This document shows, in pieces, positions 1,835 through 62,600 of a DNA stretch of 64,000 nt. Numbering within the stretch: position 1 is the first letter of the stretch; the number at the start of each line of letters is the position of its first letter. The notes under the pieces were generated by a model. It did no database searches, had not been told where the DNA came from, and saw nothing but the letters and a program-made list of their open reading frames with translations. This DNA is from Eriocheir sinensis. Taxonomy: Eukaryota; Arthropoda; Malacostraca; Decapoda; Varunidae. Location: NCBI RefSeq assembly GCF_024679095.1, contig NW_026110518.1, forward strand, positions 372,001 to 436,000, read 5' to 3'. The position numbers and the translations under genes are program-made.

Positions 1835-3359
1835 GGCTGGGACTTACCGGTGGGCTAGGCTCACCAAGGTGCGACGAAAGGCTGACCTTTCATCCTTGGG
1901 GCTGACCGGGGTGGAGACAGGCCTGTTACTATTTCGTTTATTTTGTTTATCCTTTCCACTATTCGTCTACTCACTTTCTTCGTTTATTTACTTCCTTCCG
2001 TCACAATTTACACCCTCAACTCACTGCTACAATCATGACACACAGGTAAGGTTAGTTAATGGAGTATCACACGTTAGTTAGAGTTAGAGAGAGGAGAGGC
2101 GCCTTGCTATCTTGAAGACATCATTGTACTTCATGGCCAGCAGCAGCTCCTCGCTGGCGCCCACATCGCCGCGGCACATTTTTATCCCTTCCCTCTAAGG
2201 CTCAAGGCCTCTCCTTTTCTCCTCCCCTGGGGTGCTCTCACGGCTTCACTCCCTCACCCTCACGCGGGACGACCTGACATTGGATTAGGTTTACGGTAAT
2301 TTACACTTCGGGGTCCACAGAGAAGGAAAGTGTTAATATTATGTTCCTTTTTGTACACGCGTCTCGCCTGGCGTCACCTTGTTTACATTCTACAAAGTTA
2401 TCTTTTACTTACCAGCTGAATGTAAATGGATACCAATATAAATACGTACGCCTCAAAGGTGTCCTTCTCCATGCTGTTGAGATCTGAGGTGGTCTGTACC
2501 GCAAGTTTGCGGAAGAAAGTCCATTCACTAGTCAGAGCGAAGTCAGCGATAAACAACCTCCCTTCTCTCTATCTAGTAAGCAACTGAGATTAATCGGCGG
2601 TGAGCGGCTGAGGGGGAGTGCGTCGTGCGCCTGGCAGGCGACAAGAAACGAGTCTCGCGAATCGGTCAAAATATTTCGGCGAGCCTTAATCGGTCACAAT
2701 ATCTCGCCACACCGGCGGTCTCTCTGGCCGCTCCAAGGACGCGGGGACAGCCAGGCAAGGACGAGGGCAAGCCAGCCGAGAACGAAGGAGTGCCATGGGC
2801 ACCATCTTCACATGTTTTATGGTATCCACATGCATGTAGCTGACACAACACTTATACACCACGTGTTAATGACATTTCAGGTGATTTTTACGTGCTTTGT
2901 GTGTCTCCGTGTGGAGCCGCATCTAGTCTCCCTTAGGCTGTTGAATTTTATTCAAGTGTAGAGGGATGTTTAATATTTTTTCCTGATTTGTGAACATTGT
3001 TTGCATTTTAGGTATAATCATTCATTTTCTTTTCTCCTTTCTTTTGTGTGTTTTATTGCAGTGGAGAAGTTTAATATTTTTCTTGAGTAACATTGTTACG
3101 CATTATATATATAATCATTCATTTTCTTTTCTCCTTTCTTTTGTGTGTTTTATTGCACAGTGAAGAAGTTTTTATCATGCTAAGTATTCACTCCTTATTC
3201 TTTTCCCTCTTTTTAATGCGTTTTGAAAGCATCTGAGGCGAGTGAGCACACACTTAGCGGTGATACTTTTTCCTTTTACCATTTTTTTCCTCATGAAGCC
3301 ATATTTTACTAATGCCTTTTTTTTAAATGGCAGGTAAACCAGAGAAGTAGTTTGACTCG
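1835..3359. other. Intergenic or element leader sequence, no gene seen
   Basis: Open frames here (1833-2081, 2625-2843) have no recognisable domain and low-complexity composition. The left part may be the 5' region of the minus-strand LINE and the right part the leader of the gypsy element that follows, but no LTR pair was found. Confidence 0.4.
2964..3157 (+). repeat. Imperfect tandem duplication, period 97 bp
   Basis: A 47-bp block starting ATAATCATTCATTTTC is identical at 3014-3060 and 3111-3157. The preceding sequence (GTTTAATATTTTT ... AACATTGTT) is also repeated with changes. It lies just upstream of the gypsy gag. Confidence 0.8.
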
Positions 3360-4018: not shown

Positions 4019-4540
4019 ATGGCTGTCATCAAGGGTCAGTTTCGAACAAAAAAATTATCTCTAGCCTACGGCCCCGCTGACAAGTTGCACGATTTCGTGC
4101 TGAAAATCAAGACAAAAATTGAGGAGAAAGACGGAGCGCCAGTTCCCACTGTAGCCTCTGTCGACCAGAAGGCCGCTAATGTTAGCGCGTCCTCATCGAT
4201 GGTGGCGTCCGCCACCGAAAAGCCTAGGCGCCACTGTTCGTACTGTCAGCGCGACGGTCATACGGTTGACTATTGTGTAAAACGTCAGCGGGATCGCAAG
4301 GCTAAAAGGGAGAGAGGAGGTTCGCCGATGTCAGGCAAATCTGCTTCTCAGAAGACCCCGGCCGCTTCAAAAAGTCGAGCCGCGGGCAACAACACTGGAA
4401 AGTTTTGTTTTATCCACGGTACTGGTAGACACACCACAGATGAGTGTTTCTCTGTGCTACAGTTAAAGAAAGAGCGAGCAGGAAAGTTCGTGAAGGGGTC
4501 AGGGGAAGCCGAGCGCCCCCCAAAAAACGACCCAGGGTAG
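4019..4540 (+). pseudogene. Gypsy gag nucleocapsid with two zinc knuckles
   Basis: This frame continues gag. It holds a classical CCHC knuckle, CSYCQRDGHTVDYC (C-x2-C-x4-H-x4-C), near 4233-4276, and a variant knuckle CFIHGTGRHTTDEC (C-x2-H-x4-H-x4-C) near 4408-4449. The pair with a basic linker is typical of gypsy nucleocapsid, which binds the element RNA. The frame ends at 4540 and overlaps the protease frame. Confidence 0.8.
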
Positions 4541-42520: not shown

Positions 42521-43569
42521 GTTACGTCACCAGTATCGTAACACTGGTGTGATCATGGGTCTCGGGAAAAGTACAAAAAAAATAAAAAGACAAAACAAAA
42601 AATGGGTAGGTTAGGCCTCAAAACAACAGGTTATTTTCCCCTGAACCGAACAACAAAATAAAAGGAAAATTAATAATTTAAAACAAAGGAAACAGTGAAC
42701 GGAAACGCCAAAATGAACTAGAGATAAGATATATTTACAAGAAGTTAATATTTACATTAATTACAAAAAAAAGGAAAACCCAAGATTACCTTAGGAACAC
42801 ACTCCTTTAAAAAAAAAAAAACATGAAACAAATAACAAACACAAAACACTACTGAAAAACACTTGAACGAGGGAGGCAGCACGTAACACGGCACAAGCGT
42901 GATAAACACGCAAACAGTGACGGCACACGAAAGCACACACAAAAACCTACCTTACACCAGTAACGACCCTCTCTCTCCCGTAAAAAAAAACACACGCTTA
43001 CAGGCATGGAAAACCTGCAGAAGGCGCTGCTGGGACACAAAAGGGGGAGAGAGGAGCCGGCCTCCCTTCAAACTCGACGGTTGCACGGGAAAACAAGGGA
43101 AGAGCAAGTGACCTAGGGTCACTCGCTTATAATGGGGTGGCTGCTGCCTCGGCGCCCCGCGAGCGGACTGCCAGACGTCGCGGGCGGTGCGGGGCAACAA
43201 ACCCCACGACAACAACAAAATACATTGTTTATATACAATACATAAATATTTAATCCTAAACATAAAAAGGAAACATACATAATATCATACAATACATTGA
43301 AACGGGCCGGAGAGACATAAATGAAAAGCACAGCCCGCTACAAGCCCCAGCGCGGGAAGGTGAGGCCAGGACAGGGAGCGGGTGGTGGGAATATTCCGCT
43401 CCCCCAACCAGAAATATCCAGTTAATGCTGGGTCGGTGTGGGTGGACATACCACCGAATCCGGAAAATACCGGCCCAAACAAAGGTGTCACATAGGCGAG
43501 CCACGTGGTGACTGCCCGTGTCTGTGGAAAATAATAAAACAAGGCGGCGGGTGAAGCCCAGCCGTAACA
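42520..43569 (-). repeat. Outer gypsy LTR, uninterrupted copy
   Basis: About 1050 bp from TGTTACGTCACCAG to CAGCCGTAACA. Internal blocks (GACCTAGGGTCACTCGCTTA, CGCGGGAAGGTGAGGCCAGG) are the intact versions of the two sites occupied in the other LTR. A purine-rich tract on the minus strand (GGTGGTGGGGAC) adjoins its right edge, as a polypurine tract should. Confidence 0.85.
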
Positions 43570-43599
43570 GTCCCCACCACCAAGAGCAGACACGGGGTG

Positions 43600-43975
43600 T
43601 CACAGCGGCCCGCCGTGTGCTGTGACGGGAAACAACAAAATATATAATAAGTCACACAAAAATCTCTCAAAATAAACTGGAAAACAAAGTAACTAAAGTT
43701 AAAAAAAAATCATGACACAAAAATATGGTTATAATCCCTCTCAAAACTGAACACACAATAACAGACAAATAATTCAACCCCCCAAAATAATAAATCTTCA
43801 AAAATGAGTCACAAAGCAAATAAATCAGAGACAAGTAAAAATAATGAAAATAACACAAATAATCACACAAATATAAATATAAATAAATTTGAAAACTAAC
43901 TCTAACCTACCCTATCAACAAAGGTGTCAATCCTGAGAAGTAAGGTAGGCGCCCTTCGCTGTCAAACTAACTTAA
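43600..43975. other. AT-rich interior of the outer gypsy, pol missing
   Basis: No RT catalytic box, RNase H or integrase is seen where they are expected. Confidence 0.5.
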
Positions 43976-43977
43976 AC

Positions 43978-44290
43978 AAAATGCAGGGGTGGACCAGGCC
44001 CTCTGCCTTGAACACAACTCGAGCGGACACCACCACTTGTGCCTCTCACGCTGATGCCTGTCCGGAGTAAGGACTCGACTTCCTTCCTCACGGCCAGCAC
44101 ATGACGGGGATGGAGCCTGAGTATCGCCTGGCACAATGGCGGGGCGTCTCTGGCGTCCATATCAGGGGAGATGGGGTCCCTGTGGTCTTTCCGGCCTCGA
44201 AAGAGAACCGGTGCCAACAAAAGGGCCTGGTAAGCACGCCGGTCGGCCAGGGGCCTCCCGACGCGGTCCACCCTAGGGGTTGAAACGACG
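43978..44290 (-). pseudogene. Outer gypsy RT, N-terminal start only
   Basis: Minus-strand frame 44271-43972: HPRHVLAVRKEVESLLRTGI, then a short degraded piece before a stop. It resembles the RT entry (EVxxLLxxGII, then SPW-SP). The catalytic part is gone. Confidence 0.55.
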
Positions 44291-44447
44291 CGGTGAGCCA
44301 GCCGCGCCTCCCCTGAGGTAAACAGACCTACATTTACCTCCTCCTATACCCCGACAGAACTCTGGCCAGCGAGACTGCCTGGGGCCTGAGGGTCTTCTGG
44401 AGGCGGCACTCCCACATGCTCCTCCAGGAAACTGACACGGCTCCCCG

Positions 44448-45790
44448 TTAGCTTGCGACGCCCTTCTGGGGTCGCCAAAACACAGGTGGTGCCCGAACCG
44501 CACTCTGAAAAACTGAGTGGTCCTTGATACTTAAATGAAAATGGATGACTAGTGACACATGAAACTTGGGCTTTGCCTCCCACCTCAACAGATTGACAAA
44601 TAACAGGTTCCTCGGGAATATTAAACACAAAAATGTGCTCGTAAGCACAGGAGCTACTCTCCGAGGGTAAATCACAGAGGGAAAATGAAAATTGGGGCGG
44701 TAAATTATACAAGGAAAATTACTGGTGTGGGTGCGCTCGGCGGCGCCCCGACTCAGGTAAAATGAGGATACAGTCACAGTAGCCAAGACACGTCCAAACT
44801 CAACAAAACCTGATGTCCCGCCCGCCTGAGCGCGGTGCATGAGCTCAAACACAAAAGAAGAATCAGGGACTGGCGCAGAATGCACGCCAGCCTGCCGACT
44901 CTTGTCCTGAACGGCAAGCTGCGTGTCAGGGCGGGAAGCGAGCAGCAACCGCCTCCTCAAAGGGGCCTCACTCTTGAGGGGCCCGTCGTCACTCTGCTGC
45001 ACGTCCTCCTGCCCCTGGAGGTACATCATTGTCTCGTCCTCCCTCTGGACGTCGACCAAGGCCGTCCTCCCCACAGGTGCGCTACTGCTGGTAAACTGAG
45101 GGATGCTAGAACAAACAGTGGGGGTAAAAATGCCGGAGATGTTTAAGTCTCCCTGGCAAAAATGGTCTGGCTCGGGCGTCTCTGTTTCCTCTGCGTCTCG
45201 CCTCTCCGCAGCGGCGAAGGCCGTAACGGCAGAGCGGGGAGGAACCTTCGACGTTGTTGCCCCCAGGTCAGGCGTTGTCGGCGGGGCCTCCGGCATCTCG
45301 CACGACACAGAAGCGGGGGACTCGATTTCCACCCGACTTCCCGCCAAATCGTTCCCCAAAACAAAATCAGCCTCCCGGACAGAAAGGTGCTTAACAGCAG
45401 CCACGGTTGCCAAGCCAGTGAAACAGTTAGAGTCCTGGTAAATGTCCACGAGGGGACATGACTCTTCTACACCAAACATGCCCTTTAAGGCAACAAAATT
45501 ACCCGTTTCTCGGCCGATCGCCACATCAGCCTTCACGAGCGAAAAGAGACCACCCGTGTCTCTCAAAACAGTGACGGGAACAGTCTCGCCGTCGTGCGTT
45601 ATGGAGCCCCTAGATTAAAAATGGCTTGTAGGAACCCTCCACAGGTTCCTTGCCTTCAAACAAAACAGCCTCCCTAGGCAAAACACTAGGGGTCTCAGAC
45701 AAATGCTTACCCTTCTGAGAAAAGCGGTCTGACTTCTCGCCAGCCGATCTGGACTTAAACTGGTAAGGGTGTGGTGTCTTATTACAAAAA
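44448..45790 (-). pseudogene. Outer gypsy protease and gag-pol linker
   Basis: The frame from 45566 reads RDTGGLFSLVKADVAIGRET, with D-T-G as the retropepsin loop, and later READFVLGNDLAGSRV, the second conserved block of the same protease type. A long low-complexity linker follows. Right of 45600 is the end of gag (KSDRFSQKGKHLSETPSVLP). It retains a 372-codon open frame, so decay of this part is moderate. Confidence 0.7.
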
Positions 45791-46138
45791 AAAAGTAAAG
45801 CCCAAGATTACCTTAGGAACAAACTCCTTTAAAAAAAAAACATGAAACAAATAACAAACACAAAACACTACTGAAAAACACTTGAACGAGGGAGGCAGCA
45901 CGTAACACGGCACAAGCGTGATAAACACGCAAACAGTGACGGCACACGAAAGCACACACAAAAACCTACCTTACAATAGTAACGACCCTCTCTCTCCCGT
46001 AAGAGAAAACACACGCTTACAGGCGTGGAAAACCTGCAGAAGGCGCTGATGGGACACAAAGGGGAAAGAGAGGAGCCGGCCTCCCTTCAAACTCGACGGT
46101 TGCACGGGAAAACAAGGGAAGAGCGAGTGACCTAGGGT
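45781..46138 (-). repeat. Outer gypsy right LTR, piece 1
   Basis: Matches 42759-43140 with small indels. The first 240 bp of the LTR are absent. It ends in GACCTAGGGT, where the young gypsy element begins. Confidence 0.9.
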
Positions 46139-46550
46139 TGTTGGTGGTAGCGAGTGTTCTAAGTGCTAGTCGGTTCACGGATAATGAAACTCAGAATCCG
46201 TTAGGGTTGCTTTATTGCACAAAAATACAACAAGTCATTGAGACAAACACAACACAAAAAAAAGGTGTTTGTGTGGGAATGCGTTTGTGTGAATGTTGTT
46301 TGTGTAGGTTAACATTTAAGTGTTGGTGTATGTGTATAACAATGTGTAACGGTGGACAACAAGAGAACGTGGACGGACAGTCAAAGGTAAACGAATACAA
46401 GGAAAGTTAACGATGAAGACGCGACAAGACAGACACAGTGACGATGGACATTACATGAAAACACTGAGAATCTTAGTCTCTCTTTGCAGCACCCCATTTT
46501 CTTGTGTCACTGAGGGGAAGGAACACGCGATTCGAGCGGTGACTGCTACA
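46139..46550 (-). repeat. Young gypsy 3' LTR
   Basis: Starts TGTTGGTGGTAGCG on the plus strand and ends GACTGCTACA. The adjoining GATATTCCCCCCCAGTG gives the minus-strand polypurine tract. Confidence 0.96.
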
Positions 46551-46570
46551 GATATTCCCCCCCAGTGACT

Positions 46571-49500
46571 TCATAGAAGGAACGATATCTTCCTGGTGCG
46601 GAGTGGTGCAGATGGTGTTGTTTCGGCGACGGAGAGATGGGGCGCCTGGTCTGGGGCCAGTAGGTAAGCCGGCTTGACCCTGTCTACGGAGACCGCGTCC
46701 TGAGAACCCAGTCTGTCTATCGTGACAGTCTTTCTGGTCCGTCTCAGGACGCGGTAGGGTCCTTGGTAGGGCTGCTGCAAGGGCCGCCGAACGGCATCCA
46801 CGCGCACGAAGACGTGGGTGCAGGTGTCGAGGTCCTGGTTGACGAAGGTCTTCTTCGGGGAAGAGCGAGGCTGCACCGGCTGGAGGCTCCTCATGGCACC
46901 TTTGAGGCGGGCGGCGAAGTCCTGGACGCCGCAGGGGGCGGTGTCAGGTGTGGGCGCCAGAAGTTCGCCTGGGAGCCGGAGGTTGGTGCCGTACACTAGT
47001 TCAGCCGAGGAGTGGTGCAGGTCTTCCTTCAGGGAGGACCTGATGCCGAGGAGGACCAAGGGAAGAGCCAGGGACCAGTTGTCGCGTTGGGTGGATGCCA
47101 TGAGGGAGGATTTCAGCTGCCGATGGAAGCGCTCGACCATGCCGTTAGCCTGCGGGTGGTAACTTGACGTTCTGTAGCGGCGGATGCCAAGGAGGGTCAT
47201 GACTTTGTTCCAAACTTTAGCCTCGAACTGGCCGCCGCGGTCGGAGGTGAGGCTGAGAGGACGCCGAACCTGGAGACCCAAGTAGCAATGAAGGCGTGGG
47301 CGACGGCGTCCGTAGTGATGTCAGCGATGGGGGCGGCCTCAGGCCAGCGTGTGAAACGATCCACGCAGGTGAGGATGTAGCGGTGGCCTGCGGAGGGCGG
47401 CAGGGGACCAACAAGGTCGATGTGGACATGGTCGAACCTCTCCGTGACGGGCGTGAAGGTGCCGGGTGGAGAGTGTGTGTGTCGCGTCACCTTGGAGGCT
47501 TGGCAGTCAGTGCAGGTTTTGGTCCATAGTCTGACGTCTTTGTTAATTCCTCCCAAATGAAGCGGGACGTCATCAAGCGCTGCGAGGCTCGAATGTCAGG
47601 ATGAGAGAGGTCGTGAAGCTGACGGAAGGCCTGGTAGCGGTGTCGCTGTGGCAGGTAGGGACGGATGGTGGCCGTAGAGACGTCAGCGTAGAGAGTGACC
47701 TTGGTGCCTGGGAGTGTGATTTTCTTCACTTTAAGCGCCGGGTTGTTCAGAAGCCTCTCCAGCTCTGCGTCGCCGGACTGATCGGCGGCTATGGCGGCGT
47801 AATCAAGTGAAGAGGACGTCACAGCGGTAATGTTGCGGAGAGGGCGTCAGCTGGAGCGTTGTCTGCACCTTTGATATACCGGATGTCAGTGGTGAACTGC
47901 GAGATGTAGTCCATGTGGCGGAGTTGACGTGGTGTATAAGAGTCTTTGTTCCTCAGGAAAGTTGTAGTGAGGGCTTGTGGTCGGTGAACACGTGGAAACG
48001 CCGGCCTTCAATGAAGTAGCGGAAACGTTTGACAGCCTTGAAGATGGCGAGAAGTTCCCGGTCGTAAGCGCTGTACTTGGCTTCAGACTTGGAGAGCTTA
48101 CGGGAGAAGAAGGCGATCGGCTTCCAGGCGTTGTCGACGAACTGTTGAAGGACAGCACCAGTCCCAGTGTCGGAGGCGTCTGTTGCAATCGAGATCTCCG
48201 CGTCATGGGCAGGAAGGACAACATGACTGTGTCGCTGAGAGCCTTCTTAGCAGCGAGAAAGGCGGCGTCAGCGTTCGGAGTCCAGGCGAGAGTGACAGAC
48301 TGGCCACGCTTGCAGGGCTTCACCATGGCGTAGAGGGCTGGAGCATGAGAGAGCAGTGTGGGACGAAGCGGTTGTAGAAGTTAACCATACCCAGGAATTC
48401 CTTGAGTTGGCGCTGGGTGGACGGCTTCGGGAACTGCTGGATGGCTTCAGTCCTTGAGTTGAGTGGAGCGATGCCCTCTGGAGTAACAGTGTGGCCAAGG
48501 AAGGTGAGGGTAACACCGAACTCAGACTTGTCCACGTTGATCTGTACTCCGTAGTCTTGCAAGCAGGTGAGGACTTGGTGAAGGTGCTGTTTGTGGAGGC
48601 TTCATCCGGGCTAGCGATGAGTAGATCGTCTATGTAGGCGAAGCAGAAGGGTAAGCCGCGGAGAACTTCGTCGATGAAGCGTTGAAAGGTCTGGGCCGCA
48701 TTCATGAGTCCAAACGGCATCCTGACGTATTCAAAGAGACCGAAGGGCGTGATGACGGCAGTCTTCGGTATGTCGTCAGGATGGACTGGAATCTGGTGAA
48801 AGGCCTTGACGAGGTCCACACGTGAAAAGATGGTGGAACCAGCAAGTTGAGACGAGAATTCCTGGATGTTTGGCACCGGGTATCTGTCCATCTTAGTGCG
48901 CGAGTTAAGGGCTCGGTAGTCTCCACAGGGACGTATGTCGCCGTTCTTCTTGGGGACGACGTGGAGGGCTGATGACCAGTTGCTGCTACTGGGCCGTACA
49001 ATACCTTGACGCAACAGGGACTCGAACTCGGCCTTGGCTTAACGGTAGCGTTCAGGAGCTAAGCGACGGACCTTGGCGTGTACTGGAGGTCCTGTAGTCT
49101 CTATGTGATGCGTAACGTGGTGCTTGACGGGCAGGCTGGCTGAATAGGGCTGTGTCAGCGTGGGAAAGGACTTGAGCAGGGCGGCGAACTGGTGGTCCTT
49201 GTGAACGACGGCAAGTTGCGAGCTGTCACCTGGTGCTGGTTGAGCATTGGAGAAGATGGAAGTGAGCGGGTCAACCAACCTCCGTCCTTTGACGTCGACT
49301 AAGAGGTTGAAGTGCCTTAGGAAGTCAGCTCCGAGGATTGCCTGCGAGACGTTCCCGACGTAGAAGGTCCATTCGAAGCAACGTCGTAGGTAAAGGTCCA
49401 CTTGCATGGTGTGTCGCGAGTAGACAGGTATTTTGGTACCGTTGGCGGCGTACAGGTGCAAGAGTGGAGGTAGAGTTCGCTGACTGGCGGTTGCTGGGAT

Positions 49501-49663
49501 TATACTGACATCAGCGCCGGTGTCAATCAGGAACTTTGTGTTGGAACGGCAATCATGAAGGTGGAGCAGCGCTGAGGGTTGATGACGAGCGCTATGCTGC
49601 ACTAGTGCTCGTCCTGGAGTTTGACGCCTTGTAAGTGCACGGGGTGGTACACCTCGTAGCTTT
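46571..49663 (-). pseudogene. Young gypsy pol: protease, RT, RNase H, integrase
   Basis: Protease: TKFLIDTGADVSII and ILGADFLRHF (about 49540-49310). After an in-frame TAA (49039-49041) RT follows: [36 protein letters not shown], then [13 protein letters not shown] with Y-I-D-D (about 48640). After a frameshift: [13 protein letters not shown] and [10 protein letters not shown]. RNase H shows ELLAIFKAVKRFRYFIEGRR and TDHKPS (about 48075-47965). Integrase has LHDLSHPD and CTDC, then the acidic residues in [21 protein letters not shown] and NGMVERFHRQL, and GPYRVLRR. The full set of domains is present, but a stop and at least four frame changes interrupt it. Confidence 0.93.
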
Positions 49664-50398
49664 CTCGCCGAAGTTTTTGTGGTACCAGCAGAGTCCTGGG
49701 CTTTTCGAACGGGAGCGGCGCCGACGTCGGTGAGGAGTGGGGGAGCGAGAGCGGCGGCGATCGAGCCGCTCCTCAAGAGAGGTGACTTTCGTCGCGAGCA
49801 GGGAGACTTGCTTGACGAGTTCGTCAAATTGAGTGGTCCTTTCGGAGACGACGGAAGACACTGAGGAAGTTACCGGTCCAGGTAGAGTTGCCATGAATTC
49901 GTCTGCTAACTTGGCAATGGCGTCGGGCTTCAGGTCGTCCTTAACGCTGAAGAGGCTGCGCTGGACAGCAGGGGGCAGACGTTGGTAAAACAGCTGTTTG
50001 AACAAGTCTGGGTCGAAAGACTGGTACTTTTCGCCGAGCAGCTGCTTCATGCGGCGTAGGAGGTCCGTCGGTTTCTCATTACCCAACTCTTCTTTGGAGA
50101 GGAGTTCACGGAGGCGGGTGGCGACAGAAGACTGAAGGCGTTGGAGTAGGGCAGTCTTCAGGTCTTCATAGGCATGATCAGAGTTGTAGGCTGAGGCGAT
50201 GACGTCAGAGACTTGTGGAAGGACGTCGGCGGGCAGGAGGCTAACAGCGTGAGTGTACTGAGTAATGCTGTTAGTAATTTTGGCGGTCTTGAATCCGCAC
50301 TCCAAAATCGAGAACCATATGGACGGGTCGTGTGAGCAGAAGGGCGGCGCTTTGAAGGACACCGCCGCCGCAGCGGAAGAGTTGTCGTCGTCAGACAT
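49592..50398 (-). CDS. Young gypsy gag
   Basis: ATG at 50398 opens MSDDDNSSAAAAVSFKAPPF. WFSILECGFKTAKITNSITQ and VSLLPADVLPQVSDVI are the capsid N-terminal region usual for this group. An Arg/Ser-rich stretch (RRRSRSPTPHRRRRRSRS) precedes LCWYHKNFGEKATRCTTPC, the C-x2-H ... C-x3-C motif before the protease. The frame is open for 268 codons and overlaps the protease frame, which lies in the +1 frame, so a frameshift or separate start may connect them. It assembles the particle in related elements. Confidence 0.88.
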   Translation of the reverse strand: MSDDDNSSAAAAVSFKAPPFCSHDPSIWFSILECGFKTAKITNSITQYTHAVSLLPADVLPQVSDVIASAYNSDHAYEDLKTALLQRLQSSVATRLRELLSKEELGNEKPTDLLRRMKQLLGEKYQSFDPDLFKQLFYQRLPPAVQRSLFSVKDDLKPDAIAKLADEFMATLPGPVTSSVSSVVSERTTQFDELVKQVSLLATKVTSLEERLDRRRSRSPTPHRRRRRSRSKSPGLCWYHKNFGEKATRCTTPCTYKASNSRTSTSAA

Positions 50399-50599
50399 GG
50401 TGAAGTTGAACGGTGTTGGCAAGGGCGCTGGCGTACAACGGGCCAGGAGCCACGGCAGTCCGTGAGAGTAGAACGAACTGCGTGTAGTATAGGCACTGGC
50501 GCGTGCTAGGGACCTCAGTGGCCCGGGGAGTGAACCAGTGTCCAAGAAAGCACTGTAAAACAACACTGTACACTTAGTGGGAACACTGTGACACTAACT

Positions 50600-50930
50600 G
50601 TTGCTGGGGACTTGCTGCACTGAACTGTTGCTGGACACACTGCACTGTACACATAGATCCACAAGTGTAGGATAATCCAAGAGGGCGGTGGTAGATCCAG
50701 GAGGCGGTGGTTAATCCAGGGGGCAGCTAGTAATCCCAGTGGGGTGTCACACTGTGTTTGCGTGTACACTGAGTCTGCGGTGTGTGGTGTATACACTGTC
50801 TGTATGGCGTGTACAATGAGTCTGTGTGTGGCGTGTACACTGAGTGTGTGGCACTGTGTGTCTCAGTAATATGTCGCACTGTGTTTGAGTGTTCACTGAG
50901 TCTGTGTAGTGTGTCACACGATGTGCGTGT
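50600..50930. repeat. Degenerate GTGTACACTGAGTCTGTG-type repeats in element leader
   Basis: Repeated words such as GTGTACACTGAGTCTG, GGCGTGTAC and ATCCAGGAGGCGGTGG lie between gag and the 5' LTR of the young gypsy element. No ORF is credible. Confidence 0.6.
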
Positions 50931-51039
50931 CTCAGTCGCCGGACCAGCAGAAAAGCAGGGAGGAGGAAGGGTGGGGGTGGGTGGGTGAGCGCCGGGAGAA
51001 GCACCAGGGGGCACAAAAGATGCCTGAAGGGCGCTGAAG

Positions 51040-51290
51040 ATGCCTGGAGGAGGCGCACAGAGGGAGCCTAGAAGAGGCGCACAGAGGGAACCTGAAAGAG
51101 GCGCACAGAGGGTACCTGGAAGAGGCGCACAGAGGGTGCCTGGAAGAGGCGCACAGAGGGTGCCTGGAAGAGGCGCACAGAGGGTACCTGGAAGAGGCGC
51201 ACAGAGGGTGCCTGGGGAAGGCACAGAGGGTGCCTGGGGAAGGCACTGAGGGTGCCTGGGGAAGGCGCAGAAGGCGCCTAGGGGAGGGCA
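51040..51290. repeat. 24-bp minisatellite in the young gypsy leader
   Basis: GCGCACAGAGGGTGCCTGGA plus four bases repeats about ten times with variants. Because 24 is divisible by three, both strands stay open through it (for example repeats of GAQRVPGR), which makes false ORFs. Confidence 0.95.
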
Positions 51291-51502
51291 GGGGAAAACC
51301 CTGAAGGTGGCAACTACGCCTATGGCGTAATGTTTCTCCCGACCTGAGTGCTCAGCCCCACGAACCCCGAATGGAGGTGAGGATTTTTGCCCCAGGAGAG
51401 GGCGGACGAATGGACAAGTTACCCTGCCCAGGTCCTCCACTCTAGGAGAGAGTGCCCTTAAAACGGCACCGGCTATAAGCCACCTTGAACCATAGCAACA
51501 CT

Positions 51503-51514
51503 CCAGGGTCACCA
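51503..51514 (-). promoter_or_regulatory. Primer-binding site of the young gypsy element
   Basis: The minus strand reads TGGTGACCCTGG two bases after the 5' LTR. TGG at this place pairs with the CCA end of a tRNA that ends in GGGTCACCA. tRNA identity not assigned. Confidence 0.8.
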
Positions 51515-51516
51515 AT

Positions 51517-51928
51517 TGTTGGTGGTAGCGAGTGTTCTAAGTGCTAGTCGGTTCACGGATAATGAAACTCAGTATCCGTTAGGGTTGCTTTATTGCACAA
51601 AAATACAACAAGTCATTGAGACAAACACAACACAAAAAAAAGGTGTTTGTGTGGGAATGCGTTTGTGTGAATGTTGTTTGTGTAGGTTAACATTTAAGTG
51701 TTGGTGTATGTGTATAACAATGTGTAACGGTGGACAACAAGAGAACGTGGACGGACAGTCAAAGGTAAACGAATACAAGGAAAGTTAACGATGAAGACGC
51801 GACAAGACAGACACAGTGACGATGGACATTACATGAAAACACTGAGAATCTTAGTCTCTCTTTGCAGCACCCCATTTTCTTGTGTCACTGAGGGGAAGGA
51901 ACACGCGATTCGAGCGGTGACTGCTACA
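51517..51928 (-). repeat. Young gypsy 5' LTR
   Basis: 412 bp, same length as 46139-46550, one difference seen by eye. It holds the promoter and start of the element RNA on the minus strand. Confidence 0.96.
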
Positions 51929-51932
51929 GGGT

Positions 51933-52186
51933 CACTCGCTTATATTGGGGTGGCTGCTGCCTCGGCGCACCGCCAGACGTCGCTGGCGGTGCGGGGCAAC
52001 AAACCCCACGACAACACAAAATACATAGTTTATATACAATACATAAATATTTAATCCTAAACATAAAAAGGAAACATACATAATATCATACAATACATTG
52101 AAACGGGCCGGAGAGACATAAATGAAAAGCACAGCCCGATGGCGACATTGACCCCGGGTCGCTACAAGCCCCAGCGCGGGAAGGTG
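51933..52186 (-). repeat. Outer gypsy right LTR, piece 2
   Basis: Matches 43140-43362, with a 22-bp extra segment containing GATGGCGACATTGACC near 52139. It ends GGGAAGGTG, where the DNA transposon starts. Confidence 0.9.
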
Positions 52187-52340
52187 TAGTCCAGTCAAAA
52201 TATGAAAAAAACACCTCTAACCCTAAAAAAATTCCAAGAAAGCGTTTTATTGTTTCTTTTGGTAGTATTACATGTGGGGAAAAACATATTAAAAGTTTAC
52301 CAAAATATGGTTACCACAAAGGGTCCAAATGTGACGTCAA
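52187..52340 (+). repeat. Left terminal inverted repeat of the XPG transposon
   Basis: Begins TAGTCCAGTCAA. The inner part shares AAAAATTCCAAGAAAGCG, AAAAGTTTACCA and ACCACAAAGG with the inverse of 55208-55361. Confidence 0.92.
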
Positions 52341-52853
52341 AGAATATGGCCGCCAAAGCTATAAAATGTGAGTGTGAGGAGTATAAAAACAGTAGTCTTG
52401 TTATATTCATAGCGCGGTATATAAATTGTGCCGTGATTTTCTTCAAAAGTGAGTTTTTCAAACTTTACTCTGATTCTTGATAAACATTATGTCTAGGACG
52501 TATGGTTTGAATTATTGCAAGTCCAAGGTATTTATAACATTTAGAAAAATGGTCAACTGTGGATTTATTAAAATTTACTTAAATATAAAAGATACAACAT
52601 TAGTAAACGGAGCTAAATGAAATATGGAATGTTCAGAGTGAGACTGGTAATGAAATATGTAACAGAAATAAATTTATAAATAGGCTTTTTTTCTGCTGCT
52701 TGAGAGTGTTTAGAAAAATACGTAGAGAGAGATATATTTATCTTTATATAGTTCTCTCAAAATATAAAAGTATAAAACGACTACACTTGTTTATTTTTTC
52801 GATTTTCATTATTGAGAAATATACTATGTTATTCCACTGCCAGAGGCAGTGGA

Positions 52854-54682
52854 ATGTCCGAACATCAGAGGGCCTTGTGGACTCTGTCTGTGCCAGTGTC
52901 CTCTTCCTACAGTGATGCGATGCAGGGTTTCACTCAAAAGAGCTTTGTCACCAGTGAACAACACAAGGAGGCAACAACGTCAAGGATGAGAAGAGATCGT
53001 GAAGACCTGGAGAAAATTACAGATAAACTCAAGACCTTTTCACCTTTCTCCGATGAAGTGTGTCTTCACAACATTATCACCGGTGTCAATGCAAATGAGG
53101 ATGTGAATGTCCATAACCTGTTTACCATTGGCAGTGAAATAGTGGCAACAATGGAGGGTCAATCACTGTTTTCCTTTTCGTACAAGCGGTCTATGAAAGC
53201 CAAGACCCTGGCATCTACGGTGGCAGTTGACGTTGCTAAGGACAAAACAATAGACCCCGCTCTTTTGTTCCAAAGGTTTCTTGTGGTGTCTCAAACTGCA
53301 GATCTTTCCCTTGATGAGGTGATGGCCTATGAACTTTCACCATACCCACCATCCCTCTTTGAGGCAAAACATCTGTTACGCAAACCAGACAAAGCATAAC
53401 TGATGGATGCTATGAAAAAACAGGTCACAGAGAGTTCAGATGACGCAGTACTCAAAGATGTACCAGAAGTGGAACATAACGTTCTTGACGGAGGTTCTCT
53501 TCTCCATCGACTGAAGTGGTCACAAGGGAAGACATATTGTTCAATCGCTGACGACTATGCATCTTTCACAGTAAAGCACTATGGTAAGGCTACCATAGTA
53601 TTTGATGGTTACATTGGAGGACCAAACACTAAGGACATTACCCATCAGAGACGCCGCCAAAATCGAACCATCAGAGACGCCGCCAAAATCGAACAAGTAA
53701 CAAAGTGAACATTGCTGAAGGAACGAAATTTGTCGGGAAAAAAGAGGATTTCCTTTCGAATGTGGAGAACAAACAGTCTCTTATCAATCTCATTTCACAA
53801 CGCATGAAGGACAGAGGTTGCCACGTAATACAATCAGAGGGGGATGCAGATGTGGAGATTGTAAAGGCAGCAGTGTCAATGTCATCCAACAAAAGTACTA
53901 GTCTTATTGGCGAAGATACAGATCTATTGGTGTTGTTACTTTATCATGCGTCAACCAGCGATGGCAACAAGCTGTATTTCTACTCGGATAAAGGGAGTCC
54001 TGCAACAGTATACGACATTAAGGTTATGAAGAAGTTGCTTGGATACGATGTTTGCAGCAGTCTTCTGTTCTTGCATGCATTCACGGGATGCGATACCACT
54101 TCCAGGGTTTTTGGAATCGGAAAAAAATCGGCTCTACACAAGGTTTTGAAGGGAGATTCTGTCTTAAAGAGCTGCGCTAAGATGTTTTCCACACCTAAGA
54201 AAAACACAGCTGAGATTGAAGACGCTGGGTGTAAAGCGATGGTGGCATTGTTCGGTGGCAAACCTGGAGACAGTCTGTCTGACATGAGGTATTCTAGTCT
54301 CTGCAAAAAAGTTGGTTCAGCCAAAAGCTTTGTAACACCTGAACGACTGCCACCGACCTCCTCTGCAACAAAGTATCATTCCCTTCGGAGTTACCTCCAA
54401 GTGATGCTATGGATGGACAATGGTGAGGCCATGGACACTACTGAATGGGGATGGGAATTGCAGAACAACAGTCTAGTTCCAGTGATGATGGACACTTCAC
54501 CTGCGCCAGAAACACTTTTGAAAATTATTCACTGCAACTGTTCTGGTGGTTGTAGTACATTTCAGTGCACTTGCAGAAGACACAGACTTACCTGTTCACG
54601 GGTATGCGGACCATGTCAAGAAGGGCATTGTGACAACATGAGTGAGGAAGCAGTGTCTGATGATGAAAATAGTGACTGTTGA
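52854..54682 (+). pseudogene. XPG/FEN1-like nuclease with CXC domain, transposon-encoded
   Basis: ATG at 52854 opens MSEHQRALWTLSV. The N-terminal third (QHKEATTSRMRRDREDLEKI; DPALLFQRFLVV; MAYELSPYPPSLFEAKHLLR) matches a widespread uncharacterised transposon protein type. Then come PIN/XPG signatures: ATIVFDGYIGGPNTKDITHQ (about 53590), EGDADVEIV (53837), LIGEDTDLLVLLLYH (53905), LHAFTGCDTTSRVFGIGKKS (54070-54130). These match the N- and I-region acidic residues and the helix-hairpin-helix of FEN1. The C-terminus (IIHCNCSGGCSTFQCTC ... CSRVCGPC) resembles the tesmin/TSO1 CXC DNA-binding domain. One TAA (53397-53399) and a 26-bp duplication (frameshift) are the only breaks. Catalytic function is inferred from residues only. 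Confidence 0.85.
53643..53694 (+). repeat. 26-bp tandem duplication causing a frameshift
   Basis: CATCAGAGACGCCGCC plus ten bases occurs twice without a gap (53643-53668, 53669-53694). Since 26 is not a multiple of three, it moves the reading frame inside the XPG gene. Confidence 0.95.
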
Positions 54683-55207
54683 ACTGGCGCGCGGTTATTC
54701 AGTGATGAAGTATGTCTTATGATGCACTGTGTATTCTAATCTTTAGAAATGTACATGTATGTCATGATGTCATTGATGACGTCATGACCTCGCCTGTCGG
54801 CCTTTCAAGAATCATTGTTATATCAAAATAAAACATGTACTTAGTATAAAAAATTGTTGTATCAAAATAAAACATGTACCTAGTATAAAAAAATGTTGTA
54901 TCAAAATAAAACATGTACTTAGTATAAAAAAAAATTGTTGTATCAAAATAAAACATGTACTTAGTATAAAAAAAATTGTTGTATCAAAATAAAACATGTA
55001 CTTAGTATAAAAAATTGTTGTATCAAAATAAAACATGTACTTAGTATAAAAAATTGTTGTATCAAAATAAAATATGTACTTAGTATAAAAAATTGTTATA
55101 TCAAAATAAAACATGTACTTAGTTTAAAAAAAATAGCAAAATCTTCTGCAACCTACAGCTACAGCTTTGAATTAAGGAAATATTGGCTATTTTCAGTGCG
55201 ATGGCTG
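54683..55207 (+). other. 3' non-coding part of the XPG transposon
   Basis: Holds a 38-bp tandem array (54816-55131) and AATAAA-type motifs inside each unit; no second gene. Confidence 0.7.
54816..55131. repeat. 38-40-bp tandem array, eight units
   Basis: Units built on ATCAAAATAAAACATGTACT and TAGTATAAAAAATTGTTGT recur eight times, varying in A-run length. It lies just inside the right inverted repeat. Confidence 0.95.
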
Positions 55208-55361
55208 TCATCGTTTTATGACATCCTAGTTAGGACCTTTGTGGTGATCATTTTCTGGTAAACTTTTAGTATGTTGTTCCCCACACATAATAGTAATAAG
55301 AAACATCATAAAACGCTTTCTTGGAATTTTTTTGGGGTCAAACACTAAATTGACCAGACTA
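55208..55361 (-). repeat. Right terminal inverted repeat of the XPG transposon
   Basis: Its inverse starts TAGTCTGGTCAATTTAG and aligns with 52187-52340 apart from small indels. Confidence 0.92.
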
Positions 55362-55571
55362 GTGAGGCCAGGACAGGGAGCGGGTGGTGGGAATATTCCG
55401 CTCCCCCAACCAGAAATATCCAGTTCATGCTGGGTCGGTGTGGGTGGACATACCACCGAATCCGGAAAATACCGGCCCAAACAAAGGTGTCACATAGGCG
55501 AGCCACGTGGTGACTGCCCGTGTCTGTGGAAAATAATAAAACAAGGCGGCGGGTGAATCCCAGCCGTAACA
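55362..55571 (-). repeat. Outer gypsy right LTR, piece 3
   Basis: GTGAGGCCAGGACAGGGAGC to CAGCCGTAACA, matching 43360-43569 with very few changes. Confidence 0.93.
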
Positions 55572-56179: not shown

Positions 56180-57660
56180 TTACGACAATGAGTAATATCT
56201 TAGTTGCTGGTTGGATTCAAAACACTTGTCTAATCTATCCTTGAAGGGCGTAACTGTTGTACTATCAACGACATCACAGGGTAGAGAGTTCCAAACATTA
56301 ACAACTCGATTGAAGAAGAAGTGTTTAGCTTCGTGCGACGATAATCTTTTACCACTTATCTTCAAATTGTGATTTTTTCTTGTTCTATTTGATCGATCAA
56401 TTGTAAAGTAATCATCCGCATTAATATCACTGAATCCTTTAAACATTTTAAACACTTCTATTAGATCGCCTCGCATTATTCGTTTTGATAGACTGAATAA
56501 ATTTACTTCTTTAAGCCTTTGTTCGTATGATAAATTTCTCAATCTAGGAATCATCTTTGTTACTCTTCGTTGAACCCGTTCCAACTTTTCTATGTCTTTT
56601 CTGTATTAGGGAGACCAAAACTATACACAGTACTCTAGACGGGGTCGAACCAACGAATTATACAGTTTTAATATTACTTTTTCCGATTTATTTTTAAAGA
56701 CTCGTCCGATGAAGCCAACCAATTTGTTTTCAGTTTTAACTACATCTGAACAATGCTGACCGGGCTTTAAATCGCTTGATATAGTGATTCCAAGATCCTT
56801 TTCTTTACTTACTGTAGAAAGTTGTTTGCCATTCATTACGTACCGAACGCGATTGTTATTTTTTTTCCGATGTGCAACACTTTACATTTGTCAACGTTAA
56901 ATTTAATTTGCCATTGATTGGCCCAACGTGCAAGTCGATCTAGATCTGATTGTAAAGCTTCTTCGTCGAGTGTCGCAGTTACTTTACTAGCAATTTTTGT
57001 GTCATCAGGAAATGTTGATACTTTGCAAGTGAGCACATCGTCGATATCATTAACATAAATTAAGAAGAGCATGGGGCCAAGCAATGATCCTTGAGGTACG
57101 CCGCTTCTGACGTCGAGCCAGTTAGATGTAACACCGTTTAGAACTACTCTCTGTTTCCGCTCAGAGAGCCAGTCCACAAGACACTTGTGAAAGTTACCCC
57201 GAGCAATCGTTGGTGGGGGACCTTATCAAATGCCTTTTGAAAATCCAGATATATGATATCTACCTATCTGCTTTCATCGAACACCTCAAAAATATAGTGA
57301 AAAAAATCAAGTAAGTTAGTTAAACACGAACGTTTACTACGAAAGCCATGTTGCGAATTATTTATTATATTATTTTCTTCGAAGAATTTCACCATATTGT
57401 CGCGAATGATAGTCTCCATTAACTTACAAACAATCGTTGTCAGGCTAATTGGTCGATAGTTTCCTGGATGAGACTTGTCCCCCTTTTTGAAAATTGGTGT
57501 GACATTTGCTAGTTTCCAATCTGACGGAACTTTTCCAGCTGTTAAAGATTTATTGAATATGATGGAGAGCGGTTTACAAATTTGATGTTTGATTTCTTTA
57601 AAGACCTAGGGTAATTTTGTCTGGACCAGGGCTTTGCTTACTTTAATCTTTTCAATTGTG
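56180..57660 (-). pseudogene. CR1-type LINE (family E) RT, copy 1
   Basis: Minus strand: LDFFHYIFEVFDESR (about 57310), MDWLSERKQRVVLNGVTSNW, VRSGVPQGSLLGPMLFLIYV, then FPDDTKIASKV, where the catalytic YADD/FADD box has Ala changed to Pro (about 57020). Further: RWANQWQIKFNVDKCKVLHI, KEKDLGITISSDLKPG and MERVQRRVTKMIPRLRNLSY. The Pro in the box and several frame breaks make it inactive. Belongs to the ORF1 with the esterase at 58950. Confidence 0.88.
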
Positions 57661-57679
57661 CGTAAATGTCACTTTCTAC

Positions 57680-58930
57680 GATGAGCACGCCATAACATCT
57701 TTTCGGTCCTTCTAACCTCCGGCGGTTGAGGTGATAAACAATCTTCGTCGGTAAATACGGATGCGAAAAAGTTATTTAGGATTGTAGCTATTTCATTTTC
57801 ATCGTTCGTGTGGTTACCATTATCATTAGCAAGCGGTCCGATACCACAAGTGAGTGACTTTTTATTATTTACATAGCTACAAAATTCTTCAGGATTTGAT
57901 TTACTCGTTTCCGCTATATATTCTTCAAGATTTTTCTTGCTCCGTTTTATTAATATCTTGGTTTCGCGGCGAATTATGCACTACTCTAGTTTGTCAGCCT
58001 CACTCTGAGTTGATATGTATCTACTGTATACGCGTTTTTTAAGAGATAGGCTATTTTGAATTTCGTTATTCCACCATTTGGGTTTCCTCTTAAAAGCTGA
58101 ACGTCTGTTACGATAGGGTACGCATATGCTTATGGCATTGTTCAATATTGTGGTGAAGGCCCCCCAAGATTTATCAATATCTGTTTCCGCCGAGATTTCA
58201 GTCCAGTCAGAATTATTTAGAATTGATCGGAGCCTTACGAAATTCGCTCTCTGATAATCAGGCACCTTTTCTTTACTAGGAGTTACTTTACTTTCTTTCA
58301 TATTGATGCTGAATGTGATTGTTCGGTGATCGCTAGAACTAAAAATTGGACCAACATTTACTTCGTTAACTAGATCAGCTGTCATTGAAAAGATAAGGTC
58401 AAGTATATTATTTTCCCGAGTCGGTTCTTGAACATGTTGATGTAAATCACTTTCTAGTAAATTTTTGCACAGGTCGAGCCCTGTATGAGAGTTCAACGGT
58501 TCACCCCATCTTTTCACTGGCAAGTTAAAGTCCCCCATAATTACTGCCTCGCAACTGCTACTTGCTTCTAATAATAATTCACTTAATGCGTGGTCGATAT
58601 CAAGAGTCTGCCTTGGCGGTCTGTAGATAAGTCCAATTACTATTTTACGAGATCTATTTTTAATTTCAATGAAGACCGTGTCTACATTGGTTATAATATC
58701 TGTTTTCACGGATACTGGATGGAGAGAGTTGTGGATATAAAAGATAACGCCTCCACCCTGTCTGTTCTCTCTTTCATGACTAACATGGTATAACCCGGTA
58801 ATCTATATCCGCAATGAAATCTCAATTTGAAGTATCTATCCAGAATCTCTGGACTCCGATGATGTGATAATGATTTGTAGCTGCGAGGACATCTAAGTCT
58901 TCAAATTTGTTACGTAGGCTACGAGCGTTT
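57680..58930 (-). pseudogene. LINE family E endonuclease, copy 1
   Basis: The frame 58709-57981 reads KIVIGLIYRPPRQTLDIDHA, EAVIMGDFNLPVKRWGEPLN, ENNILDLIFSMTADLV and FSSSDHRTITFSINM, the YRPP, GDFN and SDH blocks of the EEP fold. The upstream part continues to about 58930. A TAG near 57978-57980 separates it from RT. Confidence 0.88.
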
Positions 58931-58949
58931 ACATAGCTTTAATGTGATT

Positions 58950-59794
58950 CGAGTCAGGGGTTTCGCGGGTTGAGGTGTTCCCTTACGGTGGCGCTGCTGG
59001 TGTTCTCGCCTCCGCATTTTGGCTTTCGAAGAGCCACTTGGTCACAGAGCAGCCTCCCGAAACGGGCTGCTCCAACAGGACTTATGTGGATGCCATCAGC
59101 AAGGAACAAGTCTGAATCGTAGTAAAACTGTTCCACATGGACGTTTTTGTGAGCAAAGGGACTGAAGTCTGTTGTTTGTGCTGAAGGCCTTACTGTAAAA
59201 GCTAGATTCGGCACCGACCCTCAGGAGGATTCCTGAGATTATGATGTTACTGGCATCCGTTTTACGTTTATACTGCTTGATCATGCGGCGGTATTTCTCA
59301 AGCAGTTCCTTAGAACAGGTTGTCTTTACGTCATTTGTCCCCGCGTGAATGACAAAGAGGGTGTTCGTCGGCATTTCTCGTGACATCATCGCACGCTGCA
59401 GTGATGTCGTCCAGTCTGGCACCTGGATAGCAGTAACGTTTTCTGCGCCTTTTGATGAAAACGACCACATAACTCAACAGCTGGCCACGCACCATGGAGT
59501 CCCCAACCAGGCGAGTCTCAAACTCATCCTCCATGGTGTCTGCCATCACCTGGAACCTATTAAAGGTAGTGGGGCTCAGTAAATCCTTGCTTGTCTGCTT
59601 CGGTTTGGCTCCATTCCTTACAGGTTGGAACTGACATCCTGTAAACAGGAAGATAAGCGTTAAATGGGGCAGGCTGGAAGTTGTCCTGTGAGGCAGGCTG
59701 GGAGTTAGTCTTTGAAGCAGGCTGGGGTTAGCCTGTGAGGCAGGCTTGGGTTAGCCTGTGAGGCAGGCTGGGAGGTCAGCCTGTGGGAGCAGGT
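58950..59794 (-). pseudogene. LINE family E ORF1 with SGNH esterase domain, copy 1
   Basis: The minus strand gives RLVGDSMVRGQL (GDS block, about 59510), FVIHAGTNDVKTT (GTND block, about 59350) and LADGIHISPVGAARFGRLL (DGIH block, about 59090), the Ser, Asn and Asp-His blocks of an SGNH hydrolase. CR1-clade ORF1 proteins carry such an esterase. Frame breaks near 59470 and 59215 and loss of the N-terminus make it inactive. Its right edge is the tandem-duplication junction. Confidence 0.85.
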
Positions 59795-60300
59795 AAATGC
59801 CTTTGAAAATCCAGATATATGATATCTACCTATCTGCTTTCATCGAACACCTCAAAAATATAGTGAAAAAAATCAAGTAAGTTAGTTAAACACGAACGTT
59901 TACTACGAAAGCCATGTTGCGAATTATTTATTATATTATTTTCTTCGAAGAATTTCACCATATTGTCGCGAATGATAGTCTCCATTAACTTACAAACAAT
60001 CGTTGTCAGGCTAATTGGTCGATAGTTTCCTGGATGAGACTTGTCCCCCTTTTTGAAAATTGGTGTGACATTTGCTAGTTTCCAATCTGACGGAACTTTT
60101 CCAGCTGTTAAAGATTTATTGAATATGATGGAGAGCGGTTTACAAATTTGATGTTTGATTTCTTTAAAGACCCTAGGGGTAATTTTGTCTGGACCAGGAG
60201 CTTTGCTTACTTTAATCTTTTCAATTGTGCGTAAAATGTCACTTTCTACGATGAGCACGCCACTTAACATCTTTTCGGTCCTTCTAACCTCCGGCGGTTG
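59795..60300 (-). pseudogene. LINE family E RT N-terminal part, copy 2
   Basis: The frame 60270-59830 reads IKVSKAPGPDKITPRVFKEI, FKKGDKSHPGNYRPISLTTI and NSQHGFRSKRSCLTNLLDFF, the RT finger region up to the junction at 59795. The palm with the catalytic box is not repeated here. Confidence 0.88.
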
Positions 60301-60309
60301 AGGTGATAA

Positions 60310-61500
60310 ACAATCTTCGTCGGTAAATACGGATGCGAAAAAGTTATTTAGGATTGTAGCTATTTCATTTTCATCGTTCGTGTGGTTACCATTATCATTA
60401 GCAAGCGGTCCGATACCACAAGTGAGTGACTTTTTATTATTTACATAGCTACAAAATTCTTCAGGATTTGATTTACTCGTTTCCGCTATATATTCTTCAA
60501 GATTTTTCTTGCTCCGTTTTATTAATATCTTGGTTTCGCGGCGAATTATGCACTACTCTAGTTTGTCAGCCTCACTCTGAGTTGATATGTATCTACTGTA
60601 TACGCGTTTTTTAAGAGATAGGCTATTTTGAATTTCGTTATTCCACCATTTGGGTTTCCTCTTAAAAGCTGAACGTCTGTTACGATAGGGTACGCATATG
60701 CTTATGGCATTGTTCAATATTGTGGTGAAGGCCCCCCAAGATTTATCAATATCTGTTTCCGCCGAGATTTCAGTCCAGTCAGAATTATTTAGAATTGATC
60801 GGAGCCTTACGAAATTCGCTCTCTGATAATCAGGCACCTTTTCTTTACTAGGAGTTACTTTACTTTCTTTCATATTGATGCTGAATGTGATTGTTCGGTG
60901 ATCGCTAGAACTAAAATTGGACCAACATTTACTTCGTTAACTAGATCAGCTGTCATTGAAAAGATAAGGTCAAGTATATTATTTTCCCGAGTCGGTTCTT
61001 GAACATGTTGATGTAAATCACTTTCTAGTAAATTTTTGCACAGGTCGAGCCCTGTATGAGAGTTCAACGGTTCACCCCATCTTTTCACTGGCAAGTTAAA
61101 GTCCCCCATAATTACTGCCTCGCAACTGCTACTTGCTTCTAATAATAATTCACTTAATGCGTGGTCGATATCAAGAGTCTGCCTTGGCGGTCTGTAGATA
61201 AGTCCAATTACTATTTTACGAGATCTATTTTTAATTTCAATGAAGACCGTGTCTACATTGGTTATAATATCTGTTTTCACGGATACTGGATGGAGAGAGT
61301 TGTGGATATAAAAGATAACGCCTCCACCCTGTCTGTTCTCTCTTTCATGACTAAATATGGTATAACCCGGTAATCTATACTCCGCAATGAAATCTCAATT
61401 TGAAGTATCTATCCAAGAATCTGTGACTCCGATGATGTGATAATGATTTGTAGCTGCGAGGACATCTAAGTCTTCAAATTTGTTACGTAGGCTACGAGCG
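60310..61500 (-). pseudogene. LINE family E endonuclease, copy 2
   Basis: Frames 61280-60870 and 60873-60553 repeat the blocks of copy 1 (LIYRPPRQTLDID, MGDFNLPVKRW). A single missing A near 60915 shifts the frame in the SDH region (SDHRTITFSINM in copy 1). Confidence 0.88.
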
Positions 61501-61539
61501 TTTACATAGCAAGCTTTAATGTGATTCGAGTCAGGGGTT

Positions 61540-62600
61540 TCGCGGGTTGAGTGTTCCCTTACGGTGGCGCTGCTGGTGTTCTCGCCTCCGCATTTTTTGG
61601 CTTTCGAAGAGCCACTTGGTCACAGAGCAGCCTCCCGAAACGGGCTGCTCCAACAGGGTTTATGTGGATGCCATCAGCAAGGAACAAGTCTGAATCGTAG
61701 TAAAAACTGTTCCACATGGACGTTTTCTTGTGAGCAAAGGGACTGAAGTCTGTTGTTTGTGCTGAAGGCCTTACTGTAAAAGCTAGATTCGGCACCGACC
61801 CTCGGGAGGATTCCTGAGATTATGATGTTACTGGCATCCGTTTTACGTTTATACTGCTTGATCATGCGGCGGTATTTCTCAAGCAGTTCCTTAGAACGGG
61901 TTGTCTTTACGTCATTTGTCCCCGCGTGAATGACAAAGAGGGTGTTTCGGTCGGCATTTCTCGTGACATCATCGCACGCTGCAGTGATGTCGTCCAGTCT
62001 GGCACCTGGATAGCAGTAACGTTTTCTGCGGCCTTTTGATGAACGACCACATAACTCAACAGCTGGCCACGCACCATGGAGTCCCCAACTAGGCGAGTCT
62101 CAAACTCATCCTCCATGGTGTCTGCCATCACCTGGAACCTATTAAAGGTAGTGGGGCTCAGTAAATCCTTGCTTGTCTGCTTCGGTTTGGCTCCATTCCT
62201 TACAGGTTGGAACCCGACATCCTGTGAAGCAGGAAGATAAGCGTTAAATGGGGCAGGCTGGAAGTTGTCCTGTGAGGCAGGCTGGGAGTTAGTCTTTGAA
62301 GCAGGCTGGGGGTTAGCCTGTGAGGCAGGCTTGGGGTTAGCCTGTGAGGCAGGCTGGGGGTCAGCCTGTGAGGCGGGCTGGGGGTCAGCCTGTGAGGCAG
62401 GCTGTCGGTTGTCCTGTGAGGCAAGCCGGGAGTCAACCTGTGAGGCAGGTAACACGTCCTCCCGTGAAGCAGGAGATTCGTCTGGAGAGGGCACAGTCTC
62501 GGTGGAGGGCCTCTCCACCATTGATGGTGGAGTCACTGCCACATTATTTGAAACAAATTCCTGAAGGGCCTTGAATTTCTTTTCAAGATCATTATGTTTG
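61540..62600 (-). pseudogene. LINE family E ORF1 with esterase, copy 2, longer N-terminus
   Basis: Right of the shared part this copy keeps the start: KHNDLEKKFKALQEFVSNNV (coiled-coil-like), then a run of eight-residue PASQxxPQ repeats (62443-62258), then RLVGDSMVRGQL (about 62080), VIHAGTNDVKT (about 61915) and LADGIHINPVGAARFG (about 61680). SGNH block residues are all present. A frame change near 61940 and another near 61740 break it. Confidence 0.85.
62258..62443. repeat. 24-bp coding minisatellite in LINE ORF1
   Basis: GCCTGTGAGGCAGGCTGGGG plus four bases repeats about seven times and encodes PASQxxPQ on the minus strand. Copy 1 has fewer units (59670-59794). Confidence 0.93.

Follow-up and report, generated by a model that had tools for sequence, protein, structure and literature searches.

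DNA transposons of the Academ superfamily, including its AcademX lineage, combine a DDE transposase with an XPG nuclease and a Cys8 zinc finger, and to our knowledge no other superfamily has been described as carrying an XPG nuclease. The AcademX lineage was reportedly set out by Kapitonov and Jurka in 2010 and by Kojima in 2020. P elements produce 8-bp target duplications and carry no fused nuclease. In excerpts of two published accounts, AcademX is described with 3- or 4-bp and AcademH with 9- or 10-bp duplications, a difference that the author ties to the nuclease versus the helicase (PMC10045372), and curated Academ elements from bivalves have a mean length of 5565 bp (PMC10294476). Here, we describe a 64,000-nucleotide stretch from Eriocheir sinensis (contig NW_026110518.1, positions 372,001 to 436,000 of assembly GCF_024679095.1; hereafter the window, with coordinates counted from its first base), in which positions 52187-55361 hold a DNA transposon whose visible gene encodes a FEN1/XPG-like nuclease. 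This element is very probably non-autonomous, derived by internal deletion from an AcademX-like DNA transposon, and would have been moved by the protein of another copy.

The window family comprises at least 12 copies in the 1.765-Gb host genome, nine of which (the window element and eight others) have both ends, while three with one end only (L012, L015 and L018) were left out of the count of target-site duplications (TSDs); the copy counts are lower bounds, with 36 of 1986 candidates scored in the protein search. A comparison with longer copies sharing the same ends, proposed in a first-pass annotation made from the letters of the window, leads to L011, a copy of 5751 bp in which the same nuclease is joined to a DDE transposase. 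Its frame spans 1292 codons from stop to stop and continues into the nuclease gene seen in the window copy; the gene is interrupted close to the helix-hairpin-helix, with the tail in a separate open piece of 170 codons. The remaining eight copies measure 1773 to 3246 bp and are missing internal DNA. In the window copy, L011 position 647 is fused to position 3280 via a 6-nt filler (52834-52839, forward strand), an inverted copy of 52847-52852 that replaces about 2.6 kb, and with this DNA went the presumed start codon, the Cys/His motifs of the N-terminus and every residue of the DDE triad, in agreement with the earlier remark that no DDE core could be seen. The junction and filler are identical in L013, which differs from the window copy by 6 substitutions over 3149 aligned bases, by the 26-bp tandem duplication at 53643-53694 and by one more base. 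As the same junction is found at two insertion sites, with the TSDs GTG in the window and TAT in L013, the deleted form moved after it had arisen, and since it lacks the DDE core, its mobilisation would have depended on another copy. We regard the window element as a real, recently moved and probably dependent copy. Judged from sequence comparison, the short members of the family, eight of the nine with both ends, arose from the fused gene by internal deletion, and L015 and L013 are apparently one insertion, their right flanks being nearly alike. Additionally, the right deletion breakpoints cluster at full-length positions 4151-4377 in five of the six copies L014, L016, L017, L019, L020 and L021, and the left breakpoints of these clustered deletions fall at 341-557.

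Full-length relatives encode a single protein of about 1460 amino acids (aa). It begins with N-terminal Cys/His motifs, which are probable zinc fingers, and continues through a DDE core and a linker into a 5' nuclease of FEN1/EXO1 type, with its helix-hairpin-helix, and a CXC-like Cys-rich tail, the folds being predicted from structural models. A search with the L011 frame returned 453 proteins at E <= 0.001 among 6956 candidates; 98 of the best 120 relatives listed span 1380-1540 aa, the sources named among the matches listed include Seison nebaliae, Mytilus edulis, Porites, Xyrichtys novacula and Dendrobates tinctorius, and at least four relatives (four among the 120 listed) carry the source name '5'-3' exonuclease'. 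For models and conservation counts, 70 of 83 representatives of the 98 proteins (<72% mutual identity) were used, and the D, D and E of the DDE core are present in 70 of 70. In L011, this core is predicted to adopt an RNase H fold, in which a helical insertion precedes the helix bearing the last acid; in the VIA comparison its best fold match was the P-element transposase (6p5a, 6pe2), which it resembles in the helical insertion but from which it differs in sequence (10% identity), and CACTA and MuDR structures did not appear in the VIA listing for the core, an absence to which we give no weight. The nuclease domain matches EXO1, FEN1, XPG and Rad2 in fold (13-16% identity in the rows listed) and has seven acidic positions and the helix-hairpin-helix in common with them, although here it sits inside a fusion protein. 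Both the nine-Cys CXC-like tail and the N-terminal Cys/His motifs are conserved, while the Pfam CXC model gave its single hit among the six relatives scanned at an E of only 4.9. No XPG model was matched in Pfam and NCBIfam scans of the window frames, L011 and the relatives, and phmmer and a profile search against PDB sequences returned nothing relevant to the nuclease; its identity was settled by the fold comparison. Two proteins stand close to the window family: P0030, with the frog Dendrobates tinctorius as its named source (85% identity over 41% of the query), and P0138, with the crab Chionoecetes opilio (94% identity over 59%), which may reflect horizontal transfer, kinship or contamination.

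DUF6589 (Pfam PF20231) is a family of unknown function, and a literature search on its name found no paper. It matches the DDE region in five of the six relatives scanned, always below the cut-off (best score 26.4 bits versus 27) and extending within the core roughly from the second D to the E, whereas L011 itself had no PF20231 match in the Pfam scan. In the genome, 24 places score above the DUF6589 cut-off, and in the two that were fetched, L060 and L061, XPG motifs read by eye lie downstream of DUF6589. The L060 gene is split across frames, with a DUF6589 score of 37.5 bits, and aligns with relative P0003 at 22% identity over 879 columns (E 7e-28). Because this alignment retains the D, D and E positions, and because the relatives match in their DDE region, DUF6589 most likely represents part of the DDE core in this transposon group. 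A helicase-type AcademH was also considered for the DUF6589 loci, but the two of the 24 that were fetched carry XPG motifs.

The TSDs are 3 bp long in each of the 20 elements that have both ends, nine from the window family and 11 from other families with ends that include TAGTCCAGGAGC, TAGGCCAGTCAA and TAGTCCAGGCAA. These 20 rows represent 19 separate sites, L042 and L043 being one site mirrored, and three of the 20 rows would also fit 2 bp and one 5 bp. The 11 other-family rows were initially located by a scan requiring a 3-bp repeat; when ends were relocated by motif without this requirement, 13 of 13 paired-motif loci, including L030 and L033 that duplicate L011 and L013, gave the same 3 bp. 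The 3-bp length read at the window site by the first-pass annotation holds in all of these 20 elements, with no majority of another length. Long frames open through the Cys tail were found in L031 (1485 codons) and L043 (1461 codons), and that of L037 (1445 codons) ends without the tail. Four elements (L011, L037, L042 and L043) measure 5249-5751 bp, compared with 5565 bp for the bivalve Academ mean in the published excerpt.

With a DDD/E transposase domain and an XPG-type nuclease in the same protein and a 3-bp TSD, where 3 or 4 bp are given for AcademX, L011 fits this lineage as far as its domains, the size of its TSD and its overall length can tell, and we call it AcademX-like on these features. 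The Cys-rich tail and the N-terminal Cys/His motifs are candidates for the Cys8 finger of that lineage. The window copy differs from AcademX in its missing DDE part. Between the two options offered earlier, the AcademX-type copy without its DDE part is favoured on this footing, while the group in which the nuclease acts alone is not supported, eight of nine copies being deletions of the fused gene. AcademH would belong to the same superfamily if the AcademX placement is correct, and differs by the helicase and the 9- or 10-bp duplications given in the published excerpt: Pfam matched no helicase, SF2 or other, in the 1292-aa frame or the 170-aa tail piece of L011, and the TSDs here are 3 bp.

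In the window, both ends of the element are exact to the base, as the first-pass annotation had it, with the left junction reading gcgggaaggtg followed by TAGTCCAGTCAA and the right junction TTGACCAGACTA followed by gtgaggcc. The empty site in the twin of the interrupted long terminal repeat (LTR), at 43351-43370 on the forward strand, reads gcgggaaggtgaggcc and holds GTG once, and by comparison with this site the duplicated copies of GTG lie at 52184-52186 on the left and 55362-55364 on the right, bearing out the proposed 3-bp duplication. The left terminal inverted repeat (TAGTCCAGTCAA..., 52187-52322, forward strand) and the right one (...TTGACCAGACTA, 55236-55361, reverse strand) were delimited from sequence and self-alignment, in which element positions 34-136 match 3050-3152 over 105 columns (86% identical, E 7e-29); of the 12 outermost bases, 10 pair between the two ends. 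The exact end motif TAGTCYRGTCAA occurs twice in the window, once per element end, and at up to two mismatches 13 occurrences were found versus 17.5 expected, not above chance. A subterminal minisatellite of eight tandem copies of an A+T-rich unit of about 39 bp, counted by eye and from repeat matches, occupies 54810-55131 on the forward strand.

The gene of the window copy is represented by three frames, 52776-53399, 53400-53708 and 53633-54682, which are fragments of a single gene with two breaks: an in-frame TAA at 53397 and, where a 26-bp stretch is tandemly duplicated (53643-53694), a shift of frame. All parts lie on the forward strand. The leftover 5' part, from the first ATG after the junction to the in-frame TAA (52854-53399, from sequence and frames), covers the stretch leading from the DDE core to the nuclease. 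The XPG N-region (53400-53668), in which the frame change falls, includes the Asp of DGG (53487-53489) and of FDGY (53604-53606). Within 53669-54682, the I-region shows DAD (53843-53851), EDTD (53912-53923) and the Asp of GCD (54092-54094), and the frames together with a model of copy L002 place there a GIGK helix-hairpin-helix, the CXC-like tail (54533-54631) and the stop at 54680. The acids expected for a FEN1/XPG nuclease, the helix-hairpin-helix and the Cys-rich tail are therefore present as previously read; the nine Cys are spaced C-x-C-x3-C-x4-C-x-C-x6-C-x3-C-x2-C-x4-C, a pattern that we take to be like that of the CXC domain. In L002, the nuclease frame of 575 codons is open as far as a stop within the CXC tail.

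The interrupted flank, previously called an LTR, is a repeat of about 810 bp that indeed looks like one, with copy 1 at 42760-43569 and copy 2 (45781-46138, 51928-52186 and 55362-55571) split by a Gypsy-type element and by the DNA transposon. The interrupted copy contains 23 bp, located 26-48 bp left of the insertion site, that are absent from its twin. Window positions 42760-55571 comprise three nested elements: an LTR element, the Gypsy-type element (46138-51929, reverse strand), which lies inside the right LTR of the outer element and has its own LTRs of 414 bp (99.8% identical), and the DNA transposon; LTR-element types were assigned by eye from the reading frames. Further along, 57228-59785 and 59795-62370 form a near-tandem 2.58-kb duplication (98.4% identical) with frames resembling a LINE endonuclease and reverse transcriptase.

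In the mechanism that we propose, the Cys-rich parts would bind the transposon ends, and the DDE core would cut these ends and join them to the target with a 3-bp stagger, most likely in the manner of P, hAT and RAG. For the fused nuclease, the likeliest role is to trim 5' flaps or other branched structures at the excision or joining step, which we infer from fold and fusion only. The derivative retained both ends and would have been moved in trans by the protein of another copy; its leftover nuclease frame, probably unneeded, decayed.

Frames covering the C-terminal nuclease part alone (710-942 codons) occur in several families (L035, L040, L047-L052, L054 and L055), those of L047, L048 and others starting within the DDE insertion and that of L049 before the second D. 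One reading of such frames, which we consider improbable, is a system of two tiers, DDE-XPG masters and dependants with XPG alone, in which a nuclease-only trans factor (repressor or excision helper) favours the derivatives. Marginally less probable still is the related explanation that short elements retain the frames for the sake of a product that represses or helps transposition in trans. It draws on the occurrence of these open frames in different families with their own TSDs, and on a 3.27-kb family in which the nonsynonymous rate (dN) is below the synonymous rate (dS) in three of three pairs (dN/dS 0.0028/0.0058, 0.0057/0.0106 and 0.0022/0.0077). However, these comparisons involve four copies, each pair has only 3 to 5.5 synonymous changes and L059 contains a stop, leaving a weak signal that may go back to the parental element; comparisons of L002 with eight window-family copies are mixed, with dN exceeding dS in four (window, L011, L014 and L019), below it in three (L017, L020 and L021) and no change against L016; and the nuclease frame is broken in the window copy. 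As far as coding changes can tell, the dN/dS data neither show nor exclude a function of the nuclease-only protein.

A separate superfamily outside Academ, with an XPG nuclease acquired independently, is about as improbable as a trans-acting product. It would be compatible with a best fold match to the P element, which makes duplications of a different length (8 bp), but we know of no other superfamily with an XPG nuclease, and the duplication and element lengths agree with those in the published excerpts on AcademX and Academ. Least probable of all, and very hard to sustain, is a separate transposon type in which the XPG-like nuclease alone drives transposition, as the window copy without DDE, the C-terminal-only frames and the open L002 frame might suggest, given that a conserved DDE core is fused in the full-length relative, that a derivative with the N-terminal half alone exists too (L045, 721 codons, TSD ATA) and that internal deletion accounts for the short window-family copies.

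The lone nuclease of the window element is, in the reading that we prefer, what remains of a DDE-XPG fusion after deletion and not a new kind of transposon, which settles the choice that the first-pass annotation had left open. The models provide a structural view of this fusion, with a P-element-like DDE core, an EXO1/FEN1-like nuclease and a CXC-like tail, and suggest that DUF6589 belongs to a DDE transposase core. The fusion also makes concrete what a transposon may gain from possessing its own flap nuclease.
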